Source: an archaeon GW2011_AR19
GTDB taxonomy: Archaea; Nanobdellota; Nanobdellia; Pacearchaeales; GW2011-AR1
Direction: 5' to 3'
NCBI GenBank assembly: GCA_000806015.1
Contig: JWKY01000012.1
Coordinates: 1 to 45,538 of the forward strand
Length of the DNA: 45,538 bases
Shown here: positions 2,367 to 18,805 of the stretch, piece by piece
Layout: every line of letters starts with the position of its first letter
Position numbering within the stretch: the stretch's first letter is position 1
Position numbers and translations under genes: made by a program
The notes under the pieces: generated by a model
Seen by the model: the letters and a program-made list of their open reading frames with translations, nothing else
Databases searched by the model: none
What the model was told of the DNA's origin: nothing

Positions 2367-2449
2367 TAAAATATACCTACTTTGGGTATAAAATTTACCG
2401 AAAAGTTTATAAGGATTAAAATATACCCAATTTGGGTATAAAATTTACC
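2365..2449 (+). promoter_or_regulatory. two 35-bp direct repeats 50 bp apart with a 19-bp palindrome
   Basis: The sequence attaaaatatac-N4-tttgggtata-aaatttacc occurs at 2365-2399 and 2415-2449. The second copy has a perfect 9-bp dyad around one base (TATACCCAA T TTGGGTATA, 2422-2440); in the first the left arm is degenerate. The dyad lies between a TATA-like AT-rich box and the ATG at 2450, where a repressor could block transcription of the downstream gene pair. Confidence 0.6.
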
Positions 2450-2878
2450 ATGACCTCAATAGGAGAGCACAAAAAAAAGATAAAAGAGCATTTAGAAGAA
2501 ATAGAAGACGCTATAGATGAAGGAATAGAAAAAAAGCCCATAACTATCGGATTTCATTGTTCCGCATGTTCCATCCAGTTTTTAGAATTATATCTGCATG
2601 TCATAAATAAGATTTCTATCGGGAAAATCGTTAAACACGATTGGTTTAAAAAACCAAAACCGGAACAAAAAAAAGAACCTTTAATAGAGCGAAAACTTAA
2701 TGTTAATTTTTCTAAAAAACAAGAGATTTATGATTTAATTTATAAAATAGAAGAAGAGAGAAATATCCTGATGTACGGCAAGCCGGTTAAAAATCAGATA
2801 AAAGAAATATTAAATAATTTTCTAAAATTAAAAGAAACTTTTTTTGGTTTATTTAAAAATGAAAATGTTAAAATCTAA
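2450..2878 (+). CDS. HEPN-like partner of an MNT nucleotidyltransferase (putative)
   Basis: A 142-aa, mostly helical, lysine-rich protein. The first helix is rich in Glu and Ile (HLEEIEDAIDEGIEKK), followed by FHCSACSIQFLELYLHVINK, which resembles the helix packing of HEPN proteins paired with small nucleotidyltransferases. I chose the ATG at 2450, directly after the palindromic operator, rather than the TTG at 2432, which lies inside the palindrome. It overlaps the next gene by about 20 bases, as toxin-antitoxin pairs often do. The HEPN assignment comes mainly from context and size; no RxxxxH motif is seen. Confidence 0.6.
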   Translation: MTSIGEHKKKIKEHLEEIEDAIDEGIEKKPITIGFHCSACSIQFLELYLHVINKISIGKIVKHDWFKKPKPEQKKEPLIERKLNVNFSKKQEIYDLIYKIEEERNILMYGKPVKNQIKEILNNFLKLKETFFGLFKNENVKI

Positions 2879-3473
2879 AGACTTAATCGCTTATGCATCA
2901 TCTTTTGTTTCATTTATTTTGTCAAAGATTAAGGCAAAAGAGATTATTTTATTTGGGTCTGCAGCAAGAGGAGAGGCAGGCAAAGAAAGCGATATTGATT
3001 TATTTGTAAATGTTGAAAATAATGAAAAAGAGATTAAAAAAACAATTAATAAAGAAATTAATAAATTCTATAAATCAAAAATTGCAGATGCTTGGATTTT
3101 AAAAGGAATAAAAAATCCTCTTGCAGTTAAAGTAGGAAATCTTGATAAATGGAAATTAAAAAGGAGCATTATAAGTGAAGGAATAGTTCTGTATGGAAGA
3201 TATAAAGAGAGTCCTGAAAAAATGAGAGGCTTTAGCTATTTTAATTTATCTTCAATAAAAAATATTGCAAAAAGAAATTTTATACTGAGAAAATTATTCG
3301 GCAGGAAAGAAAAGGGTTATTCTGCAGAAGGGCTTCTTAAAAAGACAAATGGAAAAAAATTATCAAGTTTATCTTTTGTAATTCCAATAGAGCATACTCA
3401 AGAGACCATAAATTTATTGAACGCTAATAAAATTGATTATAAATTTTTTGAATTTTGGAGTGATCAAATTTAA
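2859..3473 (+). CDS. MNT-type nucleotidyltransferase domain protein
   Basis: About 205 aa. The N-terminal domain has the polymerase-beta-fold signature ILFGSAARGEAGKESDIDLF, that is GSxxxG followed by DxD. The C-terminal half (after IVLYGRYKES) is basic and ends with a stretch around SSLSFVIPIEHTQETINLL that may be a helix-turn-helix. MNT proteins usually act as antitoxins that AMPylate or otherwise inactivate a HEPN RNase. Start ATG could be 2859 or 2865. Its 3' end overlaps the convergent E1-like gene by 4 bases. Confidence 0.75.
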   Translation: MKMLKSKDLIAYASSFVSFILSKIKAKEIILFGSAARGEAGKESDIDLFVNVENNEKEIKKTINKEINKFYKSKIADAWILKGIKNPLAVKVGNLDKWKLKRSIISEGIVLYGRYKESPEKMRGFSYFNLSSIKNIAKRNFILRKLFGRKEKGYSAEGLLKKTNGKKLSSLSFVIPIEHTQETINLLNANKIDYKFFEFWSDQI

Positions 3474-4480
3474 AATTCTCTCCATTCAACTCTTAAATCC
3501 ATAAAATCTATTTCTGCAAATCTATTAGTGTTTATTCTTCCTTTTCCTGTGAGATATTTGAAAATCTCCATTGTTTGAATATTTGCAACTGCTCCGGCAA
3601 TTGGTCCAAGATTTCCTGTTTGTTTGATATCTCTTATTTTTTCTAAATCTTTTAAAGGGTCCATTCTTTTTTGATATTCTATAAAATCATCAAATGTTTT
3701 AGTAATTCCTGGAATGATAATTGGACCAACCATTCCTAAATGTAAATTATACCCTCCAGCAACACAATAAGCAATTCCGTGCTGCGCAGCATATTGGTCA
3801 ATAATTCTTGTTGTTTCTGTAACTGATGGAGAATCGGCGCAATTTACTAAAAAATTACAGCCAGAAATAATATCTTCAAGATTTTGGTTTAATTCTATTC
3901 TTTTTTTAAAAGGTAAAATTTTTGCATCTTTTAATTTTTCTTTTATAACATCAACTTTATACTTGCCAACATCACCAGAATCAAAAAATAATTGTCTGTT
4001 CAAATTGCTTTCATTCACAATATCGGGGTCAGTAATTCTTATTTCTCCCGCGCCAATTTGATATAAGCCATTTACAATCCAGGTTCCGATTCCGCCAACA
4101 CCAAAAACTGCAATTTTAGAATTTTTTATTTTTCTTTGCAGTTCTAAAGTTTCTTTTCTTGAATCAGTTAGTTCATCTAAAAATAATAATTGTCTATGAT
4201 TTCTGTCTTCTTTTAAATCTTCTTCATATTTTCTTATTATTCCTTCTTTTTCTAATGCTTGCAAGCATAAATTTATATCCCGAATATTATAATCTTTAGA
4301 TAGTCTTTCAATTAAATCTTGTTCTGAAGATTCTGAGTCAAGAAATTTAATCACATTTTTAACTAAAGAGTCTACTTGAAACTTTTTCACTTTTCGGGTT
4401 GCAGTGGAAATAAAAACATAATTATCCTCAGCATCTTTTAAGATATATAAAGAATCTTTAATTTTCAGTTTCTGCGTCAT
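3470..4480 (-). CDS. E1/ThiF-like adenylating enzyme with N-terminal RiPP recognition domain
   Basis: A 336-aa protein. Residues 1-85 resemble a PqqD-like/RRE peptide clamp (IKDSLYILKDAEDNYVFIS, then helices to LEKEGIIRKYEED). Residues about 110-336 are a ThiF/MccB-type E1 domain: GVGGIG nucleotide-binding loop (127-132), DPD (151-153), NLNRQ (159-163) and GKYK (172-175). The paired CxxC zinc motifs of many E1 enzymes are absent. Family members adenylate a peptide C-terminus or a side-chain carboxylate (MccB in microcin C7, PaaA in pantocin). Here it is third in an operon with a 49-aa peptide gene and a Tiki/TraB-like gene and overlaps the latter by 23 bases, so the peptide is the likely substrate (inference). 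Confidence 0.8.
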   Translation of the reverse strand: MTQKLKIKDSLYILKDAEDNYVFISTATRKVKKFQVDSLVKNVIKFLDSESSEQDLIERLSKDYNIRDINLCLQALEKEGIIRKYEEDLKEDRNHRQLLFLDELTDSRKETLELQRKIKNSKIAVFGVGGIGTWIVNGLYQIGAGEIRITDPDIVNESNLNRQLFFDSGDVGKYKVDVIKEKLKDAKILPFKKRIELNQNLEDIISGCNFLVNCADSPSVTETTRIIDQYAAQHGIAYCVAGGYNLHLGMVGPIIIPGITKTFDDFIEYQKRMDPLKDLEKIRDIKQTGNLGPIAGAVANIQTMEIFKYLTGKGRINTNRFAEIDFMDLRVEWREF

Positions 4481-5051
4481 TTGAAATTATCTCTCCATAT
4501 TTAATTTTCTTATCTTTTTGTGGAGCAAACATAACTTTTCCTTTATCATCTATGGGAGCAATAATCTTATAATTTTTTAATTTTTTTCTTAATAAAGAAT
4601 CTTCCCTTAAATGCCAGCATCCAATAATAATTATAATTGGTTTATTTGTTTTTTCTTTACATTCTAAGATTTTAGAGAGGTGGTATTTTTCTCTTTTCTT
4701 AATTATTTCATTTAATTTTCTTTCCTCTTCTTTTGTAAGTTCTTTTTGATTTTTAATTTTTTTTTGCAAATAATCATCAAATCCAAAATTATGGAAATCT
4801 ATTCCGATTAGATTAATTTTGTTTTCAAAACACAATTTTATTAGTTTTTCAACATCATTAAAAGAGGTCATATTAGAAATATCTCTCTTTTTTAGAATTT
4901 CCTTAAACTTATCTTCTGTATCTAATTTTAAATTTTCTAATTCTTCACTTAATACAAATTCTGGTTTTATTAATTCTATAATTTCTTTTTGCTTTAAAAA
5001 ATCATTTACAAAAGAATGAGTGTTGCCTATAAAAATAAAAGAAAAGTCCAT
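4458..5051 (-). CDS. Tiki/TraB/ChaN-like protein, putative RiPP maturation enzyme
   Basis: About 197 aa with two GxxH-type motifs, one at the N-terminus (FIFIGNTHSF) and one near the C-terminus (IIIIGCWHLRED), with acidic and Arg residues between (LSEEL, GIDFHNF, REKYHLSK). This pattern recalls the TraB/PrgY, Tiki and EreA/ChaN superfamily, whose members include metal-dependent proteases and esterases. No signal peptide or membrane helix is seen, so it is probably cytoplasmic. The frame could start at TTG 5069, but ATG 5051 is more likely. It sits between the peptide gene (stop 5071) and the E1-like gene, which suggests leader cleavage or product inactivation. The family call is by motif only. 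Confidence 0.55.
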   Translation of the reverse strand: MDFSFIFIGNTHSFVNDFLKQKEIIELIKPEFVLSEELENLKLDTEDKFKEILKKRDISNMTSFNDVEKLIKLCFENKINLIGIDFHNFGFDDYLQKKIKNQKELTKEEERKLNEIIKKREKYHLSKILECKEKTNKPIIIIIGCWHLREDSLLRKKLKNYKIIAPIDDKGKVMFAPQKDKKIKYGEIISNDAETEN

Positions 5052-5070: not shown

Positions 5071-5220
5071 TTACATCCAATATTTAATATTTGTTGGGCC
5101 CATATAAGCGCTCTCTTCTACTTTTAGGAGTCCTTTATAAAGAGGTTTTTCCACAAGTAAAAGTTTTGCTTCTTTTGTCTTTAGTTCAACTTTTTTCAAA
5201 ACTTTCTCAAGTTGTTCCAT
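5071..5220 (-). CDS. putative RiPP precursor peptide A (49 aa)
   Basis: The peptide starts MEQLEKVLKK and ends YMGPTNIKYWM. The N-terminal part is lysine/glutamate-rich and amphipathic, as expected for a leader; the last about 15 residues (GPTN, KYWM) differ in composition and are the probable core. Residues 1-10 match precursor B at 18570 in 8 of 10 positions, and the DNA upstream is almost the same. It is first in a minus-strand operon with a Tiki/TraB-like protein and an RRE-containing E1-like enzyme. A TATA-like box lies about 25 nt upstream of the ATG, so the transcript is probably leaderless. No other peptide of this kind is known to me in archaea. Confidence 0.7.
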   Translation of the reverse strand: MEQLEKVLKKVELKTKEAKLLLVEKPLYKGLLKVEESAYMGPTNIKYWM

Positions 5221-5275
5221 GCTTTTTTAATGTATAACTTCTATTTAAGCTTTTTGATTGTAGTTATTTTATAAT
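5221..5275 (-). promoter_or_regulatory. promoter of RiPP-like locus A
   Basis: On the minus strand a TTAAATA box (5242-5248) lies about 25 nt from the ATG at 5220, the usual distance from an archaeal TATA box to the transcription start. The 26 nt at 5223-5248 are identical to 18755-18780 upstream of precursor B, at the same 2-nt spacing from the ATG. Similarity continues weakly about 25 nt further upstream. Confidence 0.7.
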
Positions 5276-7790: not shown

Positions 7791-8360
7791 TCAGTAAAAT
7801 TTCTTAGCAACTTTCTCTATTTTTACTTCATTATTGATTAATTTTCCAAGTTCATACTCTTTTTTAGCCAAATTTATCATGCTCAAAGAGTCTTTGCGGG
7901 AATCAAATATCTCTTTTGTTCTTCTTACAAATGCTTCCTCAAAACGATTTTCAAGTTCGTCTTTTGTTAGTTTTTTCCCTCTATATAATACTTCTGGGGG
8001 AGATTTACAATAATCTATTTGGGAATAATCAATAAGTCCTAAATTATTATGAACAGTAAAAAATTCCACAATCTTCTCTATGTCTTGACACGCTCTCAGT
8101 TCTTCTGTTCTATGACCTAAGATTACTACAAAATCTTTTGTTTCTTTATTAATAAGATAACGCAGAGTTAGTAAATATTTCTCCCCATCTTTTAAGATTA
8201 GTGATTTTTCTATAGAATATGTTTCATTATAGTTATTATTTATACTATAATAAACTTGATATTCTTTATGTTGGTTTTCGGAATTTTGCGCATCCGCATT
8301 TCCAAAAAACCCAAGAGTTGCTACTGCGCCAATTAAGAGTTTGTTTTTTAGTGTTTTCAT
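7791..8360 (-). CDS. small secreted protein of the MKTLKNKLL family
   Basis: About 189 aa from the ATG at 8360, with a signal peptide (MKTLKNKLLIGAVATLGFFG, cut near ADAQ-N). The mature part is Tyr/Asn-rich with two lone cysteines, and ends in a lysine-rich helical region (FVRRTKEIF...DSLSMINLAKKEYE) that matches the C-terminus of the protein at 9146. DNA of the signal peptide and of the 20 bases before the ATG is almost the same as for that gene. It lies between two large surface-protein genes. Function unknown; upstream ATG 8384 is possible but adds residues before the signal. Confidence 0.7.
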   Translation of the reverse strand: MKTLKNKLLIGAVATLGFFGNADAQNSENQHKEYQVYYSINNNYNETYSIEKSLILKDGEKYLLTLRYLINKETKDFVVILGHRTEELRACQDIEKIVEFFTVHNNLGLIDYSQIDYCKSPPEVLYRGKKLTKDELENRFEEAFVRRTKEIFDSRKDSLSMINLAKKEYELGKLINNEVKIEKVAKKFY

Positions 8361-8401
8361 TATAAAGTTACTATAAATTTTCATATTTTTAAAGTTTTGT
8401 A

Positions 8402-8737
8402 TTAGTATTTTATTTCAATTCCTTCTTTTACAGCTTGCTGAACAATCCCTAATTGATTTATTCTTTTTTTAATTTCTTCTGGAGTATAACAAATAATATC
8501 TAAATTTTGTTTTTTGTCCCATAATCCATATGCTCTTGAAATTCTTTCCCTGAATTCAACACCCTGAAAATTTTCAGAGATTATTATTAAATCAACATCG
8601 CTTCCTTCTAAATGTTCCCCTCTCGCTCTGCTTCCAAATAATATAATTTTCTGCGGCTTAAATTTTTTTAAAAACTTTAAATGTTTTTTAATCAACTGAT
8701 ATGTTTTTTTATCTATTTTATTTGCTGTTTTATCCAT
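8402..8737 (-). CDS. MNT nucleotidyltransferase (antitoxin type)
   Basis: A 111-aa minimal nucleotidyltransferase with ILFGSRARGEHLEGSDVDLI (GSxxxG and DxD at about residues 37-52). The end QQAVKEGIEIK is the same as in the MNT at 12994. Minimal NTases of this kind pair with HEPN RNases and can neutralise them by modifying a tyrosine. It overlaps the upstream HEPN gene (8713-9093) by 25 bases and is cotranscribed with it. The pair is wedged between secreted-protein genes, consistent with insertion as a cassette. Confidence 0.85.
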   Translation of the reverse strand: MDKTANKIDKKTYQLIKKHLKFLKKFKPQKIILFGSRARGEHLEGSDVDLIIISENFQGVEFRERISRAYGLWDKKQNLDIICYTPEEIKKRINQLGIVQQAVKEGIEIKY

Positions 8738-9093
8738 TTTATTAATCTCCCGGATTTAATTAAATAATCTTGCGCTTTTCCTTTTGAATAAAGTTTGTAA
8801 GGTGCGTCTCCGGCAACATCAGGATACCTCGTTGTCACAAATTCAGGGGATAAATCTTGAAATATTCCAAAAAATCCAGAAGGAATTTTTGTTTCTTTTG
8901 CTAAATATATTAAAGAATGTGTTGGTCCTGCAGATTTGCCTTTTTTAATCATAAAAAAAGCTTTTAACGTTTTTTCAACACTTTGCTGGCAGAAAAAAGC
9001 TGAAACATAATACTCTTTAATCTTAAAATTTTTTTCAGCAACTTCAAAATCTTTTTCTGTCTGTTCCCATAAATTTTTAATTTCTTCTCTCAT
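8713..9093 (-). CDS. HEPN domain protein
   Basis: A 126-aa helical protein with the HEPN features MREEIKNLWEQTEKDFEVAEKN, then YYVSAFFCQQSVEKTLKAFF, then TRYPDVAGDAPYKLY. HEPN proteins paired with MNT genes are probable RNA-cleaving toxins. The start MREEI(K/R)N is the same as in the HEPN at 13290. The canonical Rx4-6H motif is not obvious; a TRYP segment takes a similar place in archaeal members. Confidence 0.85.
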   Translation of the reverse strand: MREEIKNLWEQTEKDFEVAEKNFKIKEYYVSAFFCQQSVEKTLKAFFMIKKGKSAGPTHSLIYLAKETKIPSGFFGIFQDLSPEFVTTRYPDVAGDAPYKLYSKGKAQDYLIKSGRLIKWIKQQIK

Positions 9094-9145: not shown

Positions 9146-9817
9146 TTATTCCGGCATTCCAGCTTTTGCTCTCTGAAAAAACACATTAGATATTTCAGGT
9201 TTAATTTCAACCATATTCCCATTTTCGTCTTCTATAATTTTCCACCTATTATATTCTTTTTTAAGCAAATTAACAAATTCTAAAGAATCTTGACATGAAT
9301 TTATTAATTCTTTAGCTCTTTTTACATATTCTTTACCGAATATTTCATAAGCTTCTTGTTCTGATGAAACTGATAAAGAAGATGCTAGAGTATCTTTTGG
9401 AGTAAATTCTATTCTTTCATAAAACATAGTACCGATAGGCACTTTCGTAAGTATTTCCTTGTTATGAGTAAATGAAAATTTTTCTTGCACCTGTTTTCCT
9501 GAATCTCTGATGTATTTTCCACTGGAATTTTCAATTTGGAGATCATTTATTACAGCTATTACAATTCTTGACTTATCCTCTAAATATATAATCCTCGCTT
9601 TTTTCCCGCCCAGTTCTCCCCAGAAAAGCTCTCTTTTAAAATGCCCCTCTTCAAAACAATCAAAAGTTTTATTATTATTTTCATCCCTGCACCCAAATGT
9701 TATCTTCATCTCGTCTTGATTTAAATTTTTAGACTCCGTATTTTGAGCATCCACATTTCCAAAAGCTCCAAGAGCTGCCATTGCTCCAATTAAGAGTTTG
9801 TTTTTTAGTGTTTTCAT
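9146..9817 (-). CDS. small secreted protein of the MKTLKNKLL family
   Basis: About 223 aa from ATG 9817, with a signal peptide (MKTLKNKLLIGAMAALGAFG, cut near VDAQ-N). The mature part begins with a calcium-loop-like DENNNKTFD between two cysteines and ends with a helical region (YVKRAKELINSCQDSLEFV, then KKEYNRWK) shared with the gene at 7791. An in-frame ATG at 9865 would add 16 residues. The bases upstream of the chosen ATG match those of the gene at 7791, supporting a copied promoter plus signal-peptide unit. Function unknown. Confidence 0.7.
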   Translation of the reverse strand: MKTLKNKLLIGAMAALGAFGNVDAQNTESKNLNQDEMKITFGCRDENNNKTFDCFEEGHFKRELFWGELGGKKARIIYLEDKSRIVIAVINDLQIENSSGKYIRDSGKQVQEKFSFTHNKEILTKVPIGTMFYERIEFTPKDTLASSLSVSSEQEAYEIFGKEYVKRAKELINSCQDSLEFVNLLKKEYNRWKIIEDENGNMVEIKPEISNVFFQRAKAGMPE

Positions 9818-9872
9818 TATAAAGTTACTAAATATTTTGGTGTTTTTAAATATTTGTTTATTCATTTTATTT

Positions 9873-12993: not shown

Positions 12994-13311
12994 TCATTTT
13001 ATTTCAATTCCTTCTTTTACAGCTTGCTGAACAATGGTTATTTTATTTTTTAATTTATTAAATTCATTGGTTGTTAAGCAAATAAAATCAACAGGATAAT
13101 CAAAATTCCAATCTTCATAAAAACCAATTCCTCTCTTAAATGACTTTTTTCTTTTAAAATTATCACTCACAACAATTAAATCAAAATCACTCCACGGATG
13201 TATTTTGCCTTTTGCTCTGCTTCCAAATAATATCAATTTTTTAATTGGAATTTTCTTTTGCAATTTTTCTTTAAATTCCTTGACAATGTTTATATCTTCT
13301 TTTTTAGCCAT
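12994..13311 (-). CDS. MNT nucleotidyltransferase (antitoxin type)
   Basis: A 105-aa minimal nucleotidyltransferase with LILFGSRAKGKIHPWSDFDL (GSxxxG, DxD), ending QQAVKEGIEIK as in the copy at 8402. It overlaps the upstream HEPN gene (13290-13664) by 22 bases. Downstream (about 12905-12945) is a second, displaced copy of the coding sequence for KEGIEIK without the rest of the gene, a scar of duplication or recombination. Confidence 0.85.
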   Translation of the reverse strand: MAKKEDINIVKEFKEKLQKKIPIKKLILFGSRAKGKIHPWSDFDLIVVSDNFKRKKSFKRGIGFYEDWNFDYPVDFICLTTNEFNKLKNKITIVQQAVKEGIEIK

Positions 13312-13664
13312 TCTAAAATCTCCTTAGCAATAAAAATAAATTCTAAAGCATCTTTTTCTTTAAATTTTTTATAAGGGGGTTCATTTTCTAAAATTCCATA
13401 TCTGGATTCTATATACACTTTTGAAAGCTTTTCACAATTTAACAATAAATTTTCCGGCAATCCTATTTTCCTGCCAAGAATTACTAAATCATGCATTTTA
13501 ATAAGTTTCTTTTCTTTTTTAATAATTAATGCTTTTAGTCCTTTTTCAGCTGCTTGCTGGCACATAAAAGCGCATAAATAATAATCTTCGCTTTTCAAAC
13601 TATTCTCCGCGCTTTTTAAATCCCTTTTTGCCTGCTCAATCCAATTTCTAATTTCTTCTCTCAT
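13290..13664 (-). CDS. HEPN domain protein
   Basis: A 124-aa helical protein: MREEIRNWIEQAKRDLKSAE, then YYLCAFMCQQAAEKGLKALI, then MHDLVILGRKIGLP and ESRYGILENEPPYKKF. This is the common archaeal HEPN layout. It is the probable toxin (RNase) of the pair with the MNT at 12994. It diverges well from the HEPN at 8713 beyond the shared core motifs, so the two pairs were probably acquired separately rather than copied in place. Confidence 0.85.
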   Translation of the reverse strand: MREEIRNWIEQAKRDLKSAENSLKSEDYYLCAFMCQQAAEKGLKALIIKKEKKLIKMHDLVILGRKIGLPENLLLNCEKLSKVYIESRYGILENEPPYKKFKEKDALEFIFIAKEILEWLKKKI

Positions 13665-13798: not shown

Positions 13799-15205
13799 TT
13801 ATTTTCTAAAAGTGTATTTTAGTCCGGTGTTTATTATAGAATGTCTTGGAGAATAAATGATTCCTCTTCTATACAGAGTTTCCATCTCCCTCTTTAAACC
13901 AATCAACCCGTCAAAAGAAAGGGAAAGATTCTTTTCATGACCATTTTCTTTAGAAAAAGGAAAAATTTCAATTCCAAGACCAAGATAGAAAGGTCCAAAG
14001 AATTTTTTTGTTTCCCAAGAGCTTTTTCTGATTTCAAATGAAGATTGTCCTTTAATTCCGTCTTTAATATAATATTCTTCTACATTATCAGTTGTTGTTA
14101 TTAGCATTTTTTGTCTTAAGAATCCAAAACTTGTAAACATTTCAAAAGCAGGAGAAACATAACCCATATTCAATCCAAGACGGACAGTATTCTTTGCTGA
14201 AATATTTAGGTGATAGAACATATCGGAAACGAAGTATTTACTACCACTATATCCAGCCACTTCATTTTCGTAATAATCTCTTCCAGAAACTTCAAAATCT
14301 ATTTTTGAATTCATAAAAAACATATCAAGATCCATTGCAAATCCTTTTCCTTTTTTATTTGTTATTTGTGGGCTTATTCCAAAATATGACCCAACATGCG
14401 AACTTTTAGTATTTAGCACAACTCCGCCCCCAATTTTTAATTTTGCTTTTGGTTTTCTGGCTTCTTGTTCTATTCTAATTTTCTCCTGCTTTTCATATTC
14501 TATTTTTCTAGCTTCTTCTTGTTCTTTTTTAATCTTCTCTCTTTCTGGCTTTTCCCCGATATAATTTTCAATTTTCTTAATCTCTTCTTCAGAAAGAAGT
14601 TTTTCTATAGGGGTTCTTGAATTCCCAGCAAGTCTTCCATCAGCCATTTTCAACCTATAAGAATATTCTTTTCTAACAAGTTCTTCTAATTGTCTTGAAT
14701 TAAATCTGCTGAATTCTTTTTGGACTGATGAAAATTCTTTTATTCTTTCAGAAAAACCCTCTCCAATCTGTTTTGCTTCTTTTTGGTCTATCCCATTATA
14801 ACTTTTGCTTATAATTTTGTCGCAATTATTAATTGACTCTCGGCAATAGTCGTAAATCTCTAAAACATAATCTATTTTTTTTGTATCAAAATTAAATGAA
14901 AATTTTTCTTGAGAGTTTATTGGAGAACCAATCTTTTGAACATTAATATAATCATAAACGCCGTCCTCATTTGTATCTCCATAATAAAACCAGATGTTGC
15001 CCTTGTTATTCTCTTTAGGTTCATTAGTTAACCATGCCAAGACATGTTTTTTAAATGCTGGATGACCAACATAATTTGCGTATTCTCCTGTTTCAAAATA
15101 AAAATTTAAATTTGGAAAAAGTTTTTCTTTTGAAGTTTGAGAGGCATCTTGGGCAAAAGATTTGTTTGTTGCTCCGAAAATTAAAATTATTATAATCTTG
15201 TCCAT
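13799..15205 (-). CDS. secreted protein with predicted outer-membrane-type beta-barrel
   Basis: A 468-aa protein. It has a short hydrophobic start (MDKIIIILIFGATNKSFAQ-DA) as signal peptide, an N-terminal domain with the calcium-loop-like DTNEDGVYD, a helical charged stretch (residues about 210-250), and a C-terminal half of about 220 residues of alternating strands: KLKIGGGVVLN, YFGISPQI, TVRLGLNMGYVSPAFEM, GPFYLGLGIEIFPFS, SLSFDGLIGL. It ends INTGLKYTFRK, much like the last strand of bacterial outer-membrane barrels. Bacteroidota proteins often show both this barrel type and signals ending in AQ. In an archaeon it would be unusual. The first half is duplicated at 1722-2366. An in-frame TGA just upstream supports the ATG at 15205. 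Confidence 0.65.
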   Translation of the reverse strand: MDKIIIILIFGATNKSFAQDASQTSKEKLFPNLNFYFETGEYANYVGHPAFKKHVLAWLTNEPKENNKGNIWFYYGDTNEDGVYDYINVQKIGSPINSQEKFSFNFDTKKIDYVLEIYDYCRESINNCDKIISKSYNGIDQKEAKQIGEGFSERIKEFSSVQKEFSRFNSRQLEELVRKEYSYRLKMADGRLAGNSRTPIEKLLSEEEIKKIENYIGEKPEREKIKKEQEEARKIEYEKQEKIRIEQEARKPKAKLKIGGGVVLNTKSSHVGSYFGISPQITNKKGKGFAMDLDMFFMNSKIDFEVSGRDYYENEVAGYSGSKYFVSDMFYHLNISAKNTVRLGLNMGYVSPAFEMFTSFGFLRQKMLITTTDNVEEYYIKDGIKGQSSFEIRKSSWETKKFFGPFYLGLGIEIFPFSKENGHEKNLSLSFDGLIGLKREMETLYRRGIIYSPRHSIINTGLKYTFRK

Positions 15206-15498: not shown

Positions 15499-16050
15499 TT
15501 AATGTATTAATACGTCTTTTTTATTGAAATTTACTTTGAAATTATCAAAAAGCTCATCAAAAATCTTTTCAGAATTTAAAGGTGAGATAAAAACCTGATT
15601 AGCTACCCATTTTCCGTTATTGCTTTCAACAATTCCTTTTTCGCCTCTTTTTCCTCTTAAAATATTCACTAATCTTACTTTATTTGAAGGAGAAAGCGAA
15701 GTAAGAACATAGTTATACATTACTTTATTTGAAAACCTAAAATTCTCAGAAATAAATTTTTTGTTCTTTAAGCTGTATCCTTCTCTTATTAAAGTATGAA
15801 TAATAGATGGAGAATTAATAAAAAATTCTTTAGCAGTAATTACGCTTATATGAAAACCTTTTATTGAATTTATTTTTTCAAGAAACTCCTTTGAAGGCTT
15901 TTCGTATAATATCGCTGCAATGTCTACATCTCCTGGAATTAATTTTCCTTTTATAGCAGATCCAAACAGAATAATATCAATTACCTTTTTATCTGAAAAA
16001 AGATTTTTTAGCTTATTCTTTATTAATGAAAGATTTAAGATAGCGGGCAT
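15499..16050 (-). CDS. MNT nucleotidyltransferase with extra C-terminal domain
   Basis: A 183-aa protein. The N-terminal NTase motif is IILFGSAIKGKLIPGDVDIA, with the GSxxxG loop and a DVD metal site. The C-terminal half (from about residue 95) has YNYVLTSLSPSNKVRLVNIL, a probable winged-helix or helical DNA-binding segment, and ends in a Lys/Asp-rich tail. The same architecture occurs in the MNT at 2859, so the two may belong to one subfamily. It overlaps the upstream helical gene by 38 bases. Confidence 0.75.
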   Translation of the reverse strand: MPAILNLSLIKNKLKNLFSDKKVIDIILFGSAIKGKLIPGDVDIAAILYEKPSKEFLEKINSIKGFHISVITAKEFFINSPSIIHTLIREGYSLKNKKFISENFRFSNKVMYNYVLTSLSPSNKVRLVNILRGKRGEKGIVESNNGKWVANQVFISPLNSEKIFDELFDNFKVNFNKKDVLIH

Positions 16051-16342
16051 ATTCTCTTATTTTTATTGTATCCTCCTTTTTTATTTTAAAATTATAGGAT
16101 TTGACATAAATTTGGAATAATTCAGAAACTTTAGAGTAAATTTCTTTAAAATGCCTGCTTAATAAAGAAAATCTTTGAGAATGATTTTTTGGAAAGATTT
16201 TTATTTTTGAATAAATGAGATAATCGCATGTCACAACAATTGCCTTAAAAAAATCAGTTGCAGAGGCATTAAATCTTTCTTTTTTTAAGTTATCCTCTCC
16301 AGAATCTAAAAATTCATTTATATTCTCAATAATCTCTTCCAT
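16013..16342 (-). CDS. helical HEPN-like partner of the MNT at 15499
   Basis: A 109-aa all-helical protein (MEEIIENINEFLDSGEDNLKKERF, then ASATDFFKAIVVTCDYLIYS, NHSQRFSLLSRHFKEIYSKV). Size, helix pattern and overlap with an MNT gene fit a HEPN-type or HEPN-like toxin. The overlap and order match the other MNT pairs of the window. A RHFKEIY segment could be the catalytic site, but this is speculative. Confidence 0.6.
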   Translation of the reverse strand: MEEIIENINEFLDSGEDNLKKERFNASATDFFKAIVVTCDYLIYSKIKIFPKNHSQRFSLLSRHFKEIYSKVSELFQIYVKSYNFKIKKEDTIKIREYARYLKSFINKE

Positions 16343-16519: not shown

Positions 16520-17263
16520 ATGAAATTTGATTTTAAATTAGCGCCTATTAAATACGATGTTGAAAAAATATATCATTTTTTAAACCCTGATGAAGAAGAT
16601 TGGAATTGGAGCAGATATATTAAAAATTGTTATTCTGAATTAAACAAAATGGATTCAAAAGAAAAAATTAAAAAAATTTTAATAAAGGTTAGAGAAGAAA
16701 ATAAAAAAAAGTTACAAGATAAATTATTTAATTATAAAAAAGAATTTGAAAAAATTTCTAATAAAATTATTTCTGAATTTAAGGAAATTTTAGAGATAAA
16801 TGCGATTAAAACCCATAAAATAGATATTCTAATCTCATTAAGCCCAATAAATCCTTATAATTTAGAAAAAAAAGAATTTTCAGTGTATTGGAATTTTCCA
16901 ATTAAAGATATGATTGCTATTTCTATACATGAGATTTTTCATTTTATTTATTTTGAAAAATGGAGGGAAATTTTTCCGAAAACAACTATTAAAGATTTTG
17001 AACCTCCAAGTTTAATTTGGCATTTAAGTGAATTGGTTGTTCCAGCAGCATTAAATGATAAAAAAATTCAAAATGTTTTTAAATATCTTCATAGAACTTA
17101 TGAGGAATACACTAAACGAAGAATAAATAAAAAAAGTATAAATAAAAAAAGTATAAATGAAATTATCTTAGATTTATATAGTAAAAAAAGGCCTTTCTCA
17201 TTATTTATAAAAGAAGCGTATAATTTTGTATTAAAACATGAAAAAGAGATTCAAAAGGTTTAA
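16520..17263 (+). CDS. HExxH metallopeptidase-like protein next to RiPP-like locus B
   Basis: A 247-aa protein with no signal peptide. The motif SIHEIFHFIYFEKW (about residues 136-149) is a zinc-protease HExxH. Downstream WHLSELVVPAAL supplies a possible third ligand (Glu). The C-terminus has a short tandem repeat (INKKSINKKSIN, from an 18-bp DNA duplication near 17121-17156). The rest is lysine-rich and helical. It converges on the radical SAM gene, overlapping its end by 4 bases. If it is part of locus B, it could cleave the leader or act on the product; this is inference from position only. No closer family recognised. Confidence 0.6.
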   Translation: MKFDFKLAPIKYDVEKIYHFLNPDEEDWNWSRYIKNCYSELNKMDSKEKIKKILIKVREENKKKLQDKLFNYKKEFEKISNKIISEFKEILEINAIKTHKIDILISLSPINPYNLEKKEFSVYWNFPIKDMIAISIHEIFHFIYFEKWREIFPKTTIKDFEPPSLIWHLSELVVPAALNDKKIQNVFKYLHRTYEEYTKRRINKKSINKKSINEIILDLYSKKRPFSLFIKEAYNFVLKHEKEIQKV

Positions 17264-18555
17264 TTTCTAAAAAAATAAGAACACATCCAAGAATCCGGGG
17301 CATTGATAGAATCATTAAAAAATAAAGATTTTGCTTTACATCCTCCAGCGCAGACATTTAATACTTTACAATCTTTACATTCCGAGCTGGAGATATATTC
17401 TTTTTTTCTAAAATAATTGAGTAATAGAGAATTTTCCCAAATATTCGTTAATGATTTTTGCTTAACATTTCCAAGAATATATTTTCCAAAGTTTAACATG
17501 GGACAAAGAGATACAGAGCCGTCACTTCCTAAATAAAAGAAACTTTCCCCTAATCCACAATAGCTATTTATCTTTCTTTTTTGACCCTCGGGAGTTTTAA
17601 TAAATAATTCTCCATCAAATACTTTTTCATATAATCTTGAAATTTTTTTCATTGCCCCCATTTTATCTCTTAAATTATAAGTAGGAATTTGAACGCCTCT
17701 TCCCTCTGGAACTATTTCATCAAAAGAAATATCATTTTTATCCATCCCTAAATATTTAAGATAAATCAATGTATTTTTTATTGAATCATAAGAATCATTT
17801 ATGTCTTTAAATAAAACTATATTTGCCCTTGTTCTTATTCCTTGTTTTAACATTTCTTCTAAATTATCTAAAACTTTTTTATTGTCTGTTTTTCTTATCT
17901 TTTTATATTCTTCTGGATTGACAGAATCTATACTCACTGCCACAAATTCTGGATTAAGCAAGGATAATTCTTTTATATGTTCTTTTTCCATTAAAATCCC
18001 ATTTGTAAAAATACTAAAATCTATCATAGAAGAGTATGTTTCTTTGAGAATATCAAATAAGTCATTTTTTATAAAAGGCTCTCCCCCAGTTATTCTAATT
18101 TTTAATGCTCCTAATTTTTTAATTTCTGAGATTAAATCAAAAATATTCTCTTTTTGCAATTCTTTTGTTTTAGTCTGAGGATTATAACAATGAATACAAT
18201 TGAGATTACATTTTTTTGTTATCTCAAAAAACACCGAATCTAAAGAATATACGGAATTATCTTTATTTATAATTCTTAATTTACTTTTTTCATCTTTTGC
18301 AGAGTATTTTATAATGCCTTTTTTGTTTAATTTTTCAATTATGTTGAGAGTCTTTTCTAGAATCTCGGCTTTATTATTCTTAATATTATTTGAAATTTCT
18401 TCTATCGTCTTTTTTCCATCACATTTTTTTAATATTTCTGTAAGATCTTGATTGCAAATTATATGCTTTTTAGAAATTAAATCATATAAAATAGAACCAG
18501 AACGAGTTAATTTAAGTATGCTCCTTTCTAAATAAGGTCTTTCATTTATTTCCAT
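17260..18555 (-). CDS. radical SAM/SPASM peptide-modifying enzyme with PqqD-like domain
   Basis: A 431-aa protein in three parts. Residues about 19-86 form a PqqD/RRE-like helical domain (IEEISNNI, EKLNKKGIIKYS) that binds a leader peptide. The radical SAM core has CNLNCIHC (C116, C120, C123) and the SAM-binding GGEP (157-160). The SPASM domain has seven cysteines in the classic order: C333, C351, C393, C396, C402, C406, C425. Such enzymes introduce thioether or carbon-carbon crosslinks in sactipeptides, ranthipeptides and related RiPPs. The gene follows a Cys-rich 60-aa peptide gene by 14 bases on the same strand, its probable substrate. Confidence 0.85.
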   Translation of the reverse strand: MEINERPYLERSILKLTRSGSILYDLISKKHIICNQDLTEILKKCDGKKTIEEISNNIKNNKAEILEKTLNIIEKLNKKGIIKYSAKDEKSKLRIINKDNSVYSLDSVFFEITKKCNLNCIHCYNPQTKTKELQKENIFDLISEIKKLGALKIRITGGEPFIKNDLFDILKETYSSMIDFSIFTNGILMEKEHIKELSLLNPEFVAVSIDSVNPEEYKKIRKTDNKKVLDNLEEMLKQGIRTRANIVLFKDINDSYDSIKNTLIYLKYLGMDKNDISFDEIVPEGRGVQIPTYNLRDKMGAMKKISRLYEKVFDGELFIKTPEGQKRKINSYCGLGESFFYLGSDGSVSLCPMLNFGKYILGNVKQKSLTNIWENSLLLNYFRKKEYISSSECKDCKVLNVCAGGCKAKSLFFNDSINAPDSWMCSYFFRN

Positions 18556-18569
18556 GTTGATTCTTAAAT

Positions 18570-18752
18570 CTATAATTTATACTTAGAATCAACCTCTATT
18601 GAGATATATTCTACTGATGAATAACGCTCTGGTGGAGGGCATGCTCCAGGTGTAGCGCAAGCGCATCTACATCTCATTGAGACCAAATTGTCTTCAACAA
18701 TTTCAAAAACAGGTTCAAACTTTTTCTCCAAAGCTTTTTCAAGTTGTTCCAT
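18570..18752 (-). CDS. putative RiPP precursor peptide B (60 aa, Cys-rich core)
   Basis: The peptide starts MEQLEKALEKK, nearly the same as precursor A at 5071. An acidic leader (FEPVFEIVEDN) follows, then the core MRCRCACATPGACPPPERY with four cysteines close together, and a tail YISIEVDSKYKL. Closely spaced cysteines with a radical SAM/SPASM enzyme 14 bases downstream fit a thioether-crosslinked RiPP (sactipeptide or ranthipeptide type), but the exact chemistry cannot be read from sequence. A TATA-like box about 25 nt before the ATG predicts a leaderless transcript. The tail beyond the core might be removed or be a second, follower part. Confidence 0.8.
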   Translation of the reverse strand: MEQLEKALEKKFEPVFEIVEDNLVSMRCRCACATPGACPPPERYSSVEYISIEVDSKYKL

Positions 18753-18805
18753 ATTTTTTTAATGTATAACTTCTATTTAAATCTTTTGGTTGTTACTATT
18801 TTAGA
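18753..18805 (-). promoter_or_regulatory. promoter of RiPP-like locus B
   Basis: On the minus strand TTTAAATA lies about 25 nt from the ATG at 18752. The 26 nt at 18755-18780 are identical to 5223-5248 of locus A, with the same spacing to the start. AT-rich similarity extends upstream (CAAAAG and AAAATA blocks). Confidence 0.7.

Follow-up and report, generated by a model that had tools for sequence, protein, structure and literature searches.

A likely RRE-ThiF-type RiPP operon in a DPANN archaeon, with a conserved precursor tail and a Tiki/TraB-like middle gene

By following up a short peptide gene in the archaeon GW2011_AR19, we identified a three-gene operon that likely encodes RRE-ThiF-type RiPP biosynthesis in a DPANN lineage (Pacearchaeota/Woesearchaeota). 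The operon comprises a 49-aa peptide, a Tiki/TraB-like protein and an E1-like enzyme. The peptide and the E1-like enzyme are very likely a precursor/modifier pair; both this pairing and the ATP-dependent modification are inferred. The evidence presented below shows gene order, homology, the conserved tail of the peptide, the fold of the RRE, the ATP-site residues of the enzyme, the sharing of a promoter and leader start with a second peptide gene, and horizontal spread.

Operon structure and genomic context

The whole stretch of DNA that was analysed (45,538 nucleotides), hereafter the window, is one whole contig of a 678-kb assembly that is 75% complete, and its source archaeon is tiny and probably symbiotic. 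The features of the operon and of a second RiPP-like cluster in the window are listed with the supporting evidence in brackets; G and L numbers in the text are our own handles.

5071..5220, minus strand: precursor peptide gene, 49 aa, MEQLEKVLKKVELKTKEAKLLLVEKPLYKGLLKVEESAYMGPTNIKYWM (ORF; homologues in 12 genomes; alignment; C-terminal purifying selection)
5107..5220, minus strand: leader, residues 1-38 (alignment; Y28 and G30 invariant)
5074..5106, minus strand: core YMGPTNIKYWM, residues 39-49, up to the stop codon (alignment, pN/pS)
4458..5051, minus strand: Tiki/TraB/ChaN-superfamily protein, 197 aa, ATG at 5051 (HMM, fold, motifs; weak HMM support)
3470..4480, minus strand: E1-like (ThiF) adenylyltransferase with N-terminal RRE, 336 aa (Pfam, fold, alignment)
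4205..4480, minus strand: residues 1-92 of the E1-like protein, forming the peptide clamp or RRE (AF2 secondary structure; MccB/PaaA alignment)
3482..4144, minus strand: ThiF adenylation domain, residues 113-333 (Pfam, invariant columns, MccB alignment)
5223..5248, minus strand: 26-bp promoter/start element TTAAATAGAAGTTATACATTAAAAAA, 2 nt upstream of the peptide ATG (pattern search)
18755..18780, minus strand: identical second copy of the 26-bp element, upstream of another precursor-like gene (pattern search)
18570..18752, minus strand: 60-aa Cys-rich precursor-like peptide, second RiPP-like cluster, outside the E1 operon
17260..18555, minus strand: radical SAM/SPASM enzyme, directly 3' of the 60-aa peptide gene (Pfam)

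The Tiki-like and E1-like genes overlap by exactly 23 bp, and the peptide and Tiki-like genes are separated by exactly 19 bp. This arrangement on a common strand had been described in the first-pass annotation, made from sequence alone, and held in every detail. Since a TATA-like box precedes the peptide start in most copies of the operon (~25-30 nt upstream, identified by eye), the peptide gene heads the operon.

Elsewhere the window contains toxin-antitoxin-like genes, namely two HEPN-MNT pairs recognized by Pfam (8402-9093 and 12994-13664 (-)) and two more nucleotidyltransferase genes and their small partner genes (15499-16342 (-) and 2432-3473 (+)). Secreted-looking proteins are encoded at 1123-2210, 7791-8384, 9146-9865 and 13799-15205 (-); none of those tested had a Pfam match, and from the stretches they have in common, a MKTLKNKLLIGA start and FSFNFDTKKIDYVLEIYD, we infer a local paralogous family.

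The E1-like enzyme

The E1-like protein matches the Pfam ThiF family far above the cutoff (1.9e-39), and its best sequence matches in the PDB are PaaA, which ranks first, and MccB. Its AF2 model (pLDDT 84) aligns with both over ~345 columns, that is over the full length including the RRE, with MccB found at an E-value of 3e-22 and PaaA giving the highest TM-score (0.72-0.75), whereas only 217-257 columns are aligned for most RRE-less ThiF/MoeB entries. This difference in alignment length is the best evidence for an RRE, the region of which is modelled as four strands, three helices and one strand. The PqqD HMM produced no significant match in the E1-like proteins, the best being 0.043 in one of eight members. 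Identification of the N-terminal RRE rests on the fold of the model and not on an HMM match.

The ThiF domain carries the motifs GGIG, D151/D153, N159-N161-R162-Q163, K175 and NCAD216, and its ATP-site residues R162, K175 and D216 are invariant among the members and aligned with those of MccB. C72 and C214 are the sole invariant cysteines, of which C214 belongs to NCAD, a motif that follows the ThiF/MoeB pattern; therefore, neither a relay cysteine nor a thioester relay is expected. Zn-binding Cys pairs are present in the G210 enzyme and in bacterial relatives, and were lost from the other members.

The closest full-length bacterial relatives on plasmids (27-29% identity over 97-98%) belong to small clusters that include a transporter of the MFS or ABC type, joined in Acinetobacter by a Cys-rich 66-aa gene; no Tiki relative was found on plasmids. 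The locus on an Acinetobacter johnsonii plasmid (L109:3604-8199), which combines the 66-aa gene with an ABC transporter and a pair of ThiF genes, is a RiPP-like cluster that is apparently uncharacterised. Acidobacterial relatives (L039, L040) were set aside, being fusions with a membrane-peptidase-like part and lacking such a peptide.

The precursor peptide

When 200 genomes of the order were searched, the E1-like protein and the peptide, used as separate queries, led to the same genomes and to neighbouring places within them. Further searches added G567, G210 and G500 to the peptide-bearing genomes, and the peptide is encoded in 12 DPANN genomes. The peptide gene is real.

The precursors are 44-56 aa long and share the C-terminal end T(S/N)I(K/M)YWM, with the stop codon directly after M49 in every aligned precursor, while the leader varies in both length and sequence. 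Residues Y28, G30, Y39, T43, I45, Y47, W48 and M49 are invariant in all 12. A typical leader starts with MExLEK, continues with a Glu/Lys-rich stretch of variable length and contains a conserved YxG[LF]xx[VI]E segment, which we infer to be a putative RRE-binding motif. The core has no invariant internal Glu or Asp. Glu35 is nearly invariant (Ser in G109); Lys46 is not invariant (Met in G109), nor is Ser at position 44 (Asn in the window).

Within the last seven codons replacements are rare and synonymous differences common (pN/pS of 0.04, versus 0.35 for the last 22 codons), and w for the full-length peptide is mostly 0.15-0.5. The comparison of one close pair, the window and G102, yields a peptide w of ~1, based on few synonymous sites and mainly due to the leader, versus 0.16 for the E1-like and 0.20 for the Tiki-like gene. 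Weak and partial peptide matches in G103, G177, G181, G240, G273 and G348, mostly within longer frames, were attributed to chance.

According to the first-pass annotation, its reading would fail if no RRE or ThiF match exceeded the threshold or if the peptide frame lacked conservation. Neither outcome was observed: 12 genomes preserve the frame, the C-terminus being almost invariant, and the ThiF match is well established, the RRE being identified by fold without HMM significance. The proposed E1-like gene with an N-terminal peptide clamp is supported (ThiF by HMM, RRE by fold only), and so is the proposal that the enzyme acts on a short precursor peptide, with the modification itself still inferred.

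Shared promoter and nearby RiPP genes

An identical 26-bp element, which includes an archaeal TATA-like box, was found upstream of the 49-aa and 60-aa peptide genes, and a pattern search allowing up to three mismatches detected only these two copies anywhere in the 678-kb assembly, against 0 in the control. The 60-aa Cys-rich peptide (MEQLEKALEKK...) is encoded 14 bp upstream of the radical SAM/SPASM gene (Pfam Radical_SAM 5.6e-27, SPASM 1.4e-11) and shares the leader start MEQLEK with the 49-aa peptide. The shared promoter and leader start strongly indicate that the 49-aa and 60-aa peptides are precursors of one type. Direct BLAST of the RRE regions of the E1-like against the radical SAM enzyme found nothing, and for the radical-SAM cluster no convincing orthologue was found. 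Within this second cluster (17260-18752 (-)) the radical SAM/SPASM enzyme has an RRE-like N-terminus, and an HExxH-containing protein is encoded next to it (16520-17263 (+)).

Other RiPP genes occur near the operon in several genomes. In G135, a gene for a 48-aa peptide starting with MEKLES stands in front of a radical SAM/SPASM gene at a distance of 2.2 kb from the E1 operon; its promoter resembles that of the operon, the sharing of promoter and leader start being less perfect than in the window. In G138, a His-Xaa-Ser cluster is located ~6 kb away (HxsB 1.5e-142, above the curated cutoff), and genes for SagB (G077 and G087) and YcaO (G077) were also detected. The closeness to SPASM genes is only mild support, since SPASM proteins are common, being encoded in 108 of the 200 genomes of the order.

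The G135 locus (L024:4473-6510 (-)) contains a GNAT gene besides the peptide and radical SAM/SPASM genes, and the G138 locus (L023:14391-18999 (+)) encodes HxsB, an HxsC-like protein and a peptide of 95 aa in which SHGSHGSH repeats occur. The G077 locus (L096:5476-7651 (-)) codes for a SagD-like YcaO, the dehydrogenase SagB and a precursor-like peptide of 72 aa that is rich in Cys and Gly; it is a RiPP cluster of the azole type from a DPANN genome, and a remnant with SagB is present in G087 (L025:4084-4960).

The Tiki-like middle gene

Two GxxH motifs mark the Tiki superfamily, and the Tiki-like protein has two such motifs (GNTH and GCWH), which are conserved in most members, the first being ADTH in G210. 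The match of the window protein to TraB_PrgY_gumN (E 0.003, 17.9 versus 26.8 bits) is below the gathering cutoff; among relatives, weak matches were obtained to TraB in five of nine and to ChaN/Tiki in three of nine. The top fold matches are ChaN (E 1.7e-3) and HopBA1, and the Tiki profile had no match when run against PDB sequences. Based on weak HMM and fold evidence together with the two motifs, we assign the protein to the Tiki/TraB/ChaN superfamily. The earlier suggestion that the middle gene is a protease remains an inference, supported at the level of superfamily only.

We infer that the protein is likely a hydrolase of the peptide or its product, with its activity untested, and the balance of evidence leans slightly towards its acting on this 49-aa-type peptide. 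Maturation of the peptide and self-inactivation of the product are inferred roles between which we have no preference; Tiki genes without an E1 gene in G093, G160 and G077 are compatible with self-protection as well as with maturation. PrgY is a precedent for self-protection. Homologues in G040 and G131 (conserved residues lost) and a remote one in G170, all without the peptide, were not considered further.

Distribution in DPANN genomes

Relatives were found in assemblies of Pacearchaeota, Nanoarchaeota and Woesearchaeota. The Tiki gene follows the peptide wherever the contig extends beyond it (in G058 the contig ends), with one additional gene between the two in G176. The E1 gene follows Tiki in 10 of the 12 peptide genomes, being frameshifted in two of those (G087, G500). 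G046 has a truncated Tiki gene, and a piece of E1 is found on another of its contigs. The order peptide, Tiki, E1, which the first-pass annotation had suggested looking for in other DPANN genomes, does recur there. A thirteenth genome, G077, has Tiki and a 17-aa core-only peptide SYSDGTSIMYWM without E1, and G093 and G160 have an intact-looking Tiki copy without peptide or E1. Apart from Tiki and E1, no conserved neighbour was identified within about 9 kb of the operon, and there is no conserved transporter.

The frameshifted or broken E1 copies (G087, L025:753-1762; G500, L076:5127-6138; G046, L028/L029) accompany an intact peptide and mostly an intact Tiki gene; decay and assembly errors are both possible explanations.

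Identity to the window is much higher for E1 than for the MCM helicase in G102 (82 versus 61%) and G567 (79 versus 53%); the two values are much the same in G138 (77 versus 75%) and G135 (64 versus 62%), and two genomes of the same genus (MCM 87-89% identical) gave no E1 match. The excess of E1 identity in G102 and G567, together with the same-genus absences, indicates that the cassette is accessory and probably mobile, and horizontal movement is likely. A phage cassette is not supported, as no E1 relative was found in viral contigs.

Proposed pathway

The operon meets the following features of an RRE-ThiF pathway: i) a ThiF enzyme with ATP-site residues, ii) a fused N-terminal RRE, and iii) an adjacent precursor with a leader and a conserved core. 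A transporter and a leader peptidase are usual and not strictly defining; no conserved example of the former was found within about 9 kb, and the Tiki-like protein is a candidate for the latter.

In the proposed scheme, the YxGLxxVE segment and/or the MExLEK start would bind the RRE, as do the leaders in MccB, PaaA and IndF, and the ThiF domain would adenylate the C-terminal carboxylate of the Met closing T(S/N)I(K/M)YWM. Activation of the Met49 carboxylate is likely by analogy with IndF and EnfB, and it is the best candidate because the core has no invariant internal Glu/Asp. The acyl-adenylate would be attacked directly, since the enzyme has no catalytic cysteine, by a nucleophile that would most simply come from within the tail, where the candidates Thr43, Tyr39 and Tyr47 are all invariant. 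The predicted product is a C-terminal macrocycle, closed either as a lactone through Thr43 or Tyr or as a backbone imide, or else a C-terminal adduct; we infer an intramolecular ring to be no more and no less probable than its absence. Finally, the Tiki-superfamily hydrolase may free the core from the leader or inactivate the product in the producer. Statements on the modification and its chemistry, on what Tiki does and on the biological target are all inferences.

Several observations speak against the RiPP reading. Beside the operon no transporter is conserved, and the PqqD HMM does not detect the RRE at significance. Antimicrobial cores are usually far more diverse than this tail, which could point to a signal or cofactor, and E1 is broken or frameshifted in G087, G500 and G046, with Tiki found without E1 in G093 and G160. 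Nearness to SPASM genes, which are common in these genomes, counts for little by itself. A bolder reading, possible but less likely than not, is a new RiPP class confined to DPANN, in which E1 would cyclise the tail to a single conserved product, used by episymbionts and hosts as a signal to, or a weapon against, each other, with dedicated Tiki processing or self-protection. In the genome of the window, copying of the promoter and leader start would then allow co-expression with a second peptide, made by the radical SAM enzyme.

Alternative explanations

The peptide could be a tag, joined through its C-terminus to a protein, lipid or RNA by E1 as a minimal ubiquitin-like modifier and removed by Tiki. 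The E1 fold, the invariant C-terminus and the hydrolase within the operon favour this explanation, which is nevertheless unlikely: no E2 or E3 is encoded nearby, the E1 lacks a conserved relay cysteine, a beta-grasp fold would call for a longer and less variable peptide, the GG end is missing, and an RRE is present instead.

Modification of an internal side chain, as in the Glu activation of pantocin, with the tail as a mere recognition follower, is suggested by PaaA as the best sequence match and by the nearly invariant Glu35. It is likewise unlikely, as Glu35 is Ser in G109 and all 12 precursors, like the leaderless G077 copy, preserve the tail through its final residue.

A microcin C-like peptide-nucleotide, carrying AMP or a derivative on the C-terminal Met as a Trojan-horse inhibitor, perhaps of methionyl-tRNA synthetase, is favoured by MccB as the closest fold by E-value and by the invariant C-terminal residue but is very unlikely, since MccB chemistry requires a C-terminal Asn (succinimide) where all copies here have Met, and no conserved uptake or export gene was found.

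Comparison with known systems

The preferred reading, an RRE-ThiF enzyme acting on the C-terminus of a leader-bearing precursor, can be compared with several systems. MccB of microcin C7 is the best full-length fold match and shares the RRE, ThiF domain and ATP-site residues; however, its precursor has 7 aa, ends in Asn and yields a nucleotide product, whereas the archaeal precursors have 44-56 aa and end in Met, and its Zn-binding Cys pairs recur among archaeal E1s only in G210. PaaA of pantocin A, also RRE plus ThiF, is the best match by PDB sequence and TM-score but acts on internal Glu residues (a Glu-Glu core) of an unrelated precursor, in contrast to the archaeal core without invariant Glu. 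Ubiquitin-like conjugation involves a beta-grasp modifier with a GG end and a relay cysteine in E1, neither of which is found here. The middle protein resembles the Tiki/TraB/PrgY/ChaN superfamily in its two GxxH motifs, weak TraB/ChaN HMM matches and ChaN/HopBA1 fold, and differs in being short (197 aa) and below Pfam cutoffs; no Tiki/TraB-superfamily member of a ThiF-RiPP cluster was found in the literature searched.

Both IndF and EnfB activate the C-terminal carboxylate of the precursor (PMC12150305, PMC12250964). Enterofaecin EnfA/EnfB (PMC12250964), whose backbone imide is a precedent for a C-terminal macrocycle (reviewed in PMC12250964), differs from the archaeal operon in being bacterial, with four transporters, a different tail and no Tiki gene described. 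IndA/IndF/IndP of Streptococcus (PMC12150305) similarly combine a short precursor, an RRE-ThiF enzyme and a protease, and the IndA tail NWYFI, the C-terminal carboxylate of which is activated, is aromatic/hydrophobic like the archaeal one. The Ind cluster, however, is bacterial and has an M16 protease and a transporter. Its nucleophile is a Trp three residues before the end, whereas Trp48 is penultimate in all archaeal copies; because Trp48 adjoins Met49, the Ind-type ring is impossible here.

Archaea are not mentioned in a review of the ThiF-type class (PMC12250964), nor ThiF in a survey of archaeal RiPPs (PMC12144867). The first-pass annotation knew of no such three-gene system in archaea, and no report of one, nor of any archaeal ThiF-type RiPP, was found in the literature searched, which is not proof of absence. 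Given the ordinary homology and consistent operon, we regard the system as a new archaeal form of an operon type already known from bacteria: its archaeal occurrence and core are new, its hydrolase is unusual and its chemistry is inferred. If this is correct, the unusual tail predicts new bond chemistry, the Tiki/TraB superfamily gains a defined peptide partner, and the poorly understood, probably host-dependent DPANN cells with their small genomes gain a defined small-molecule product.
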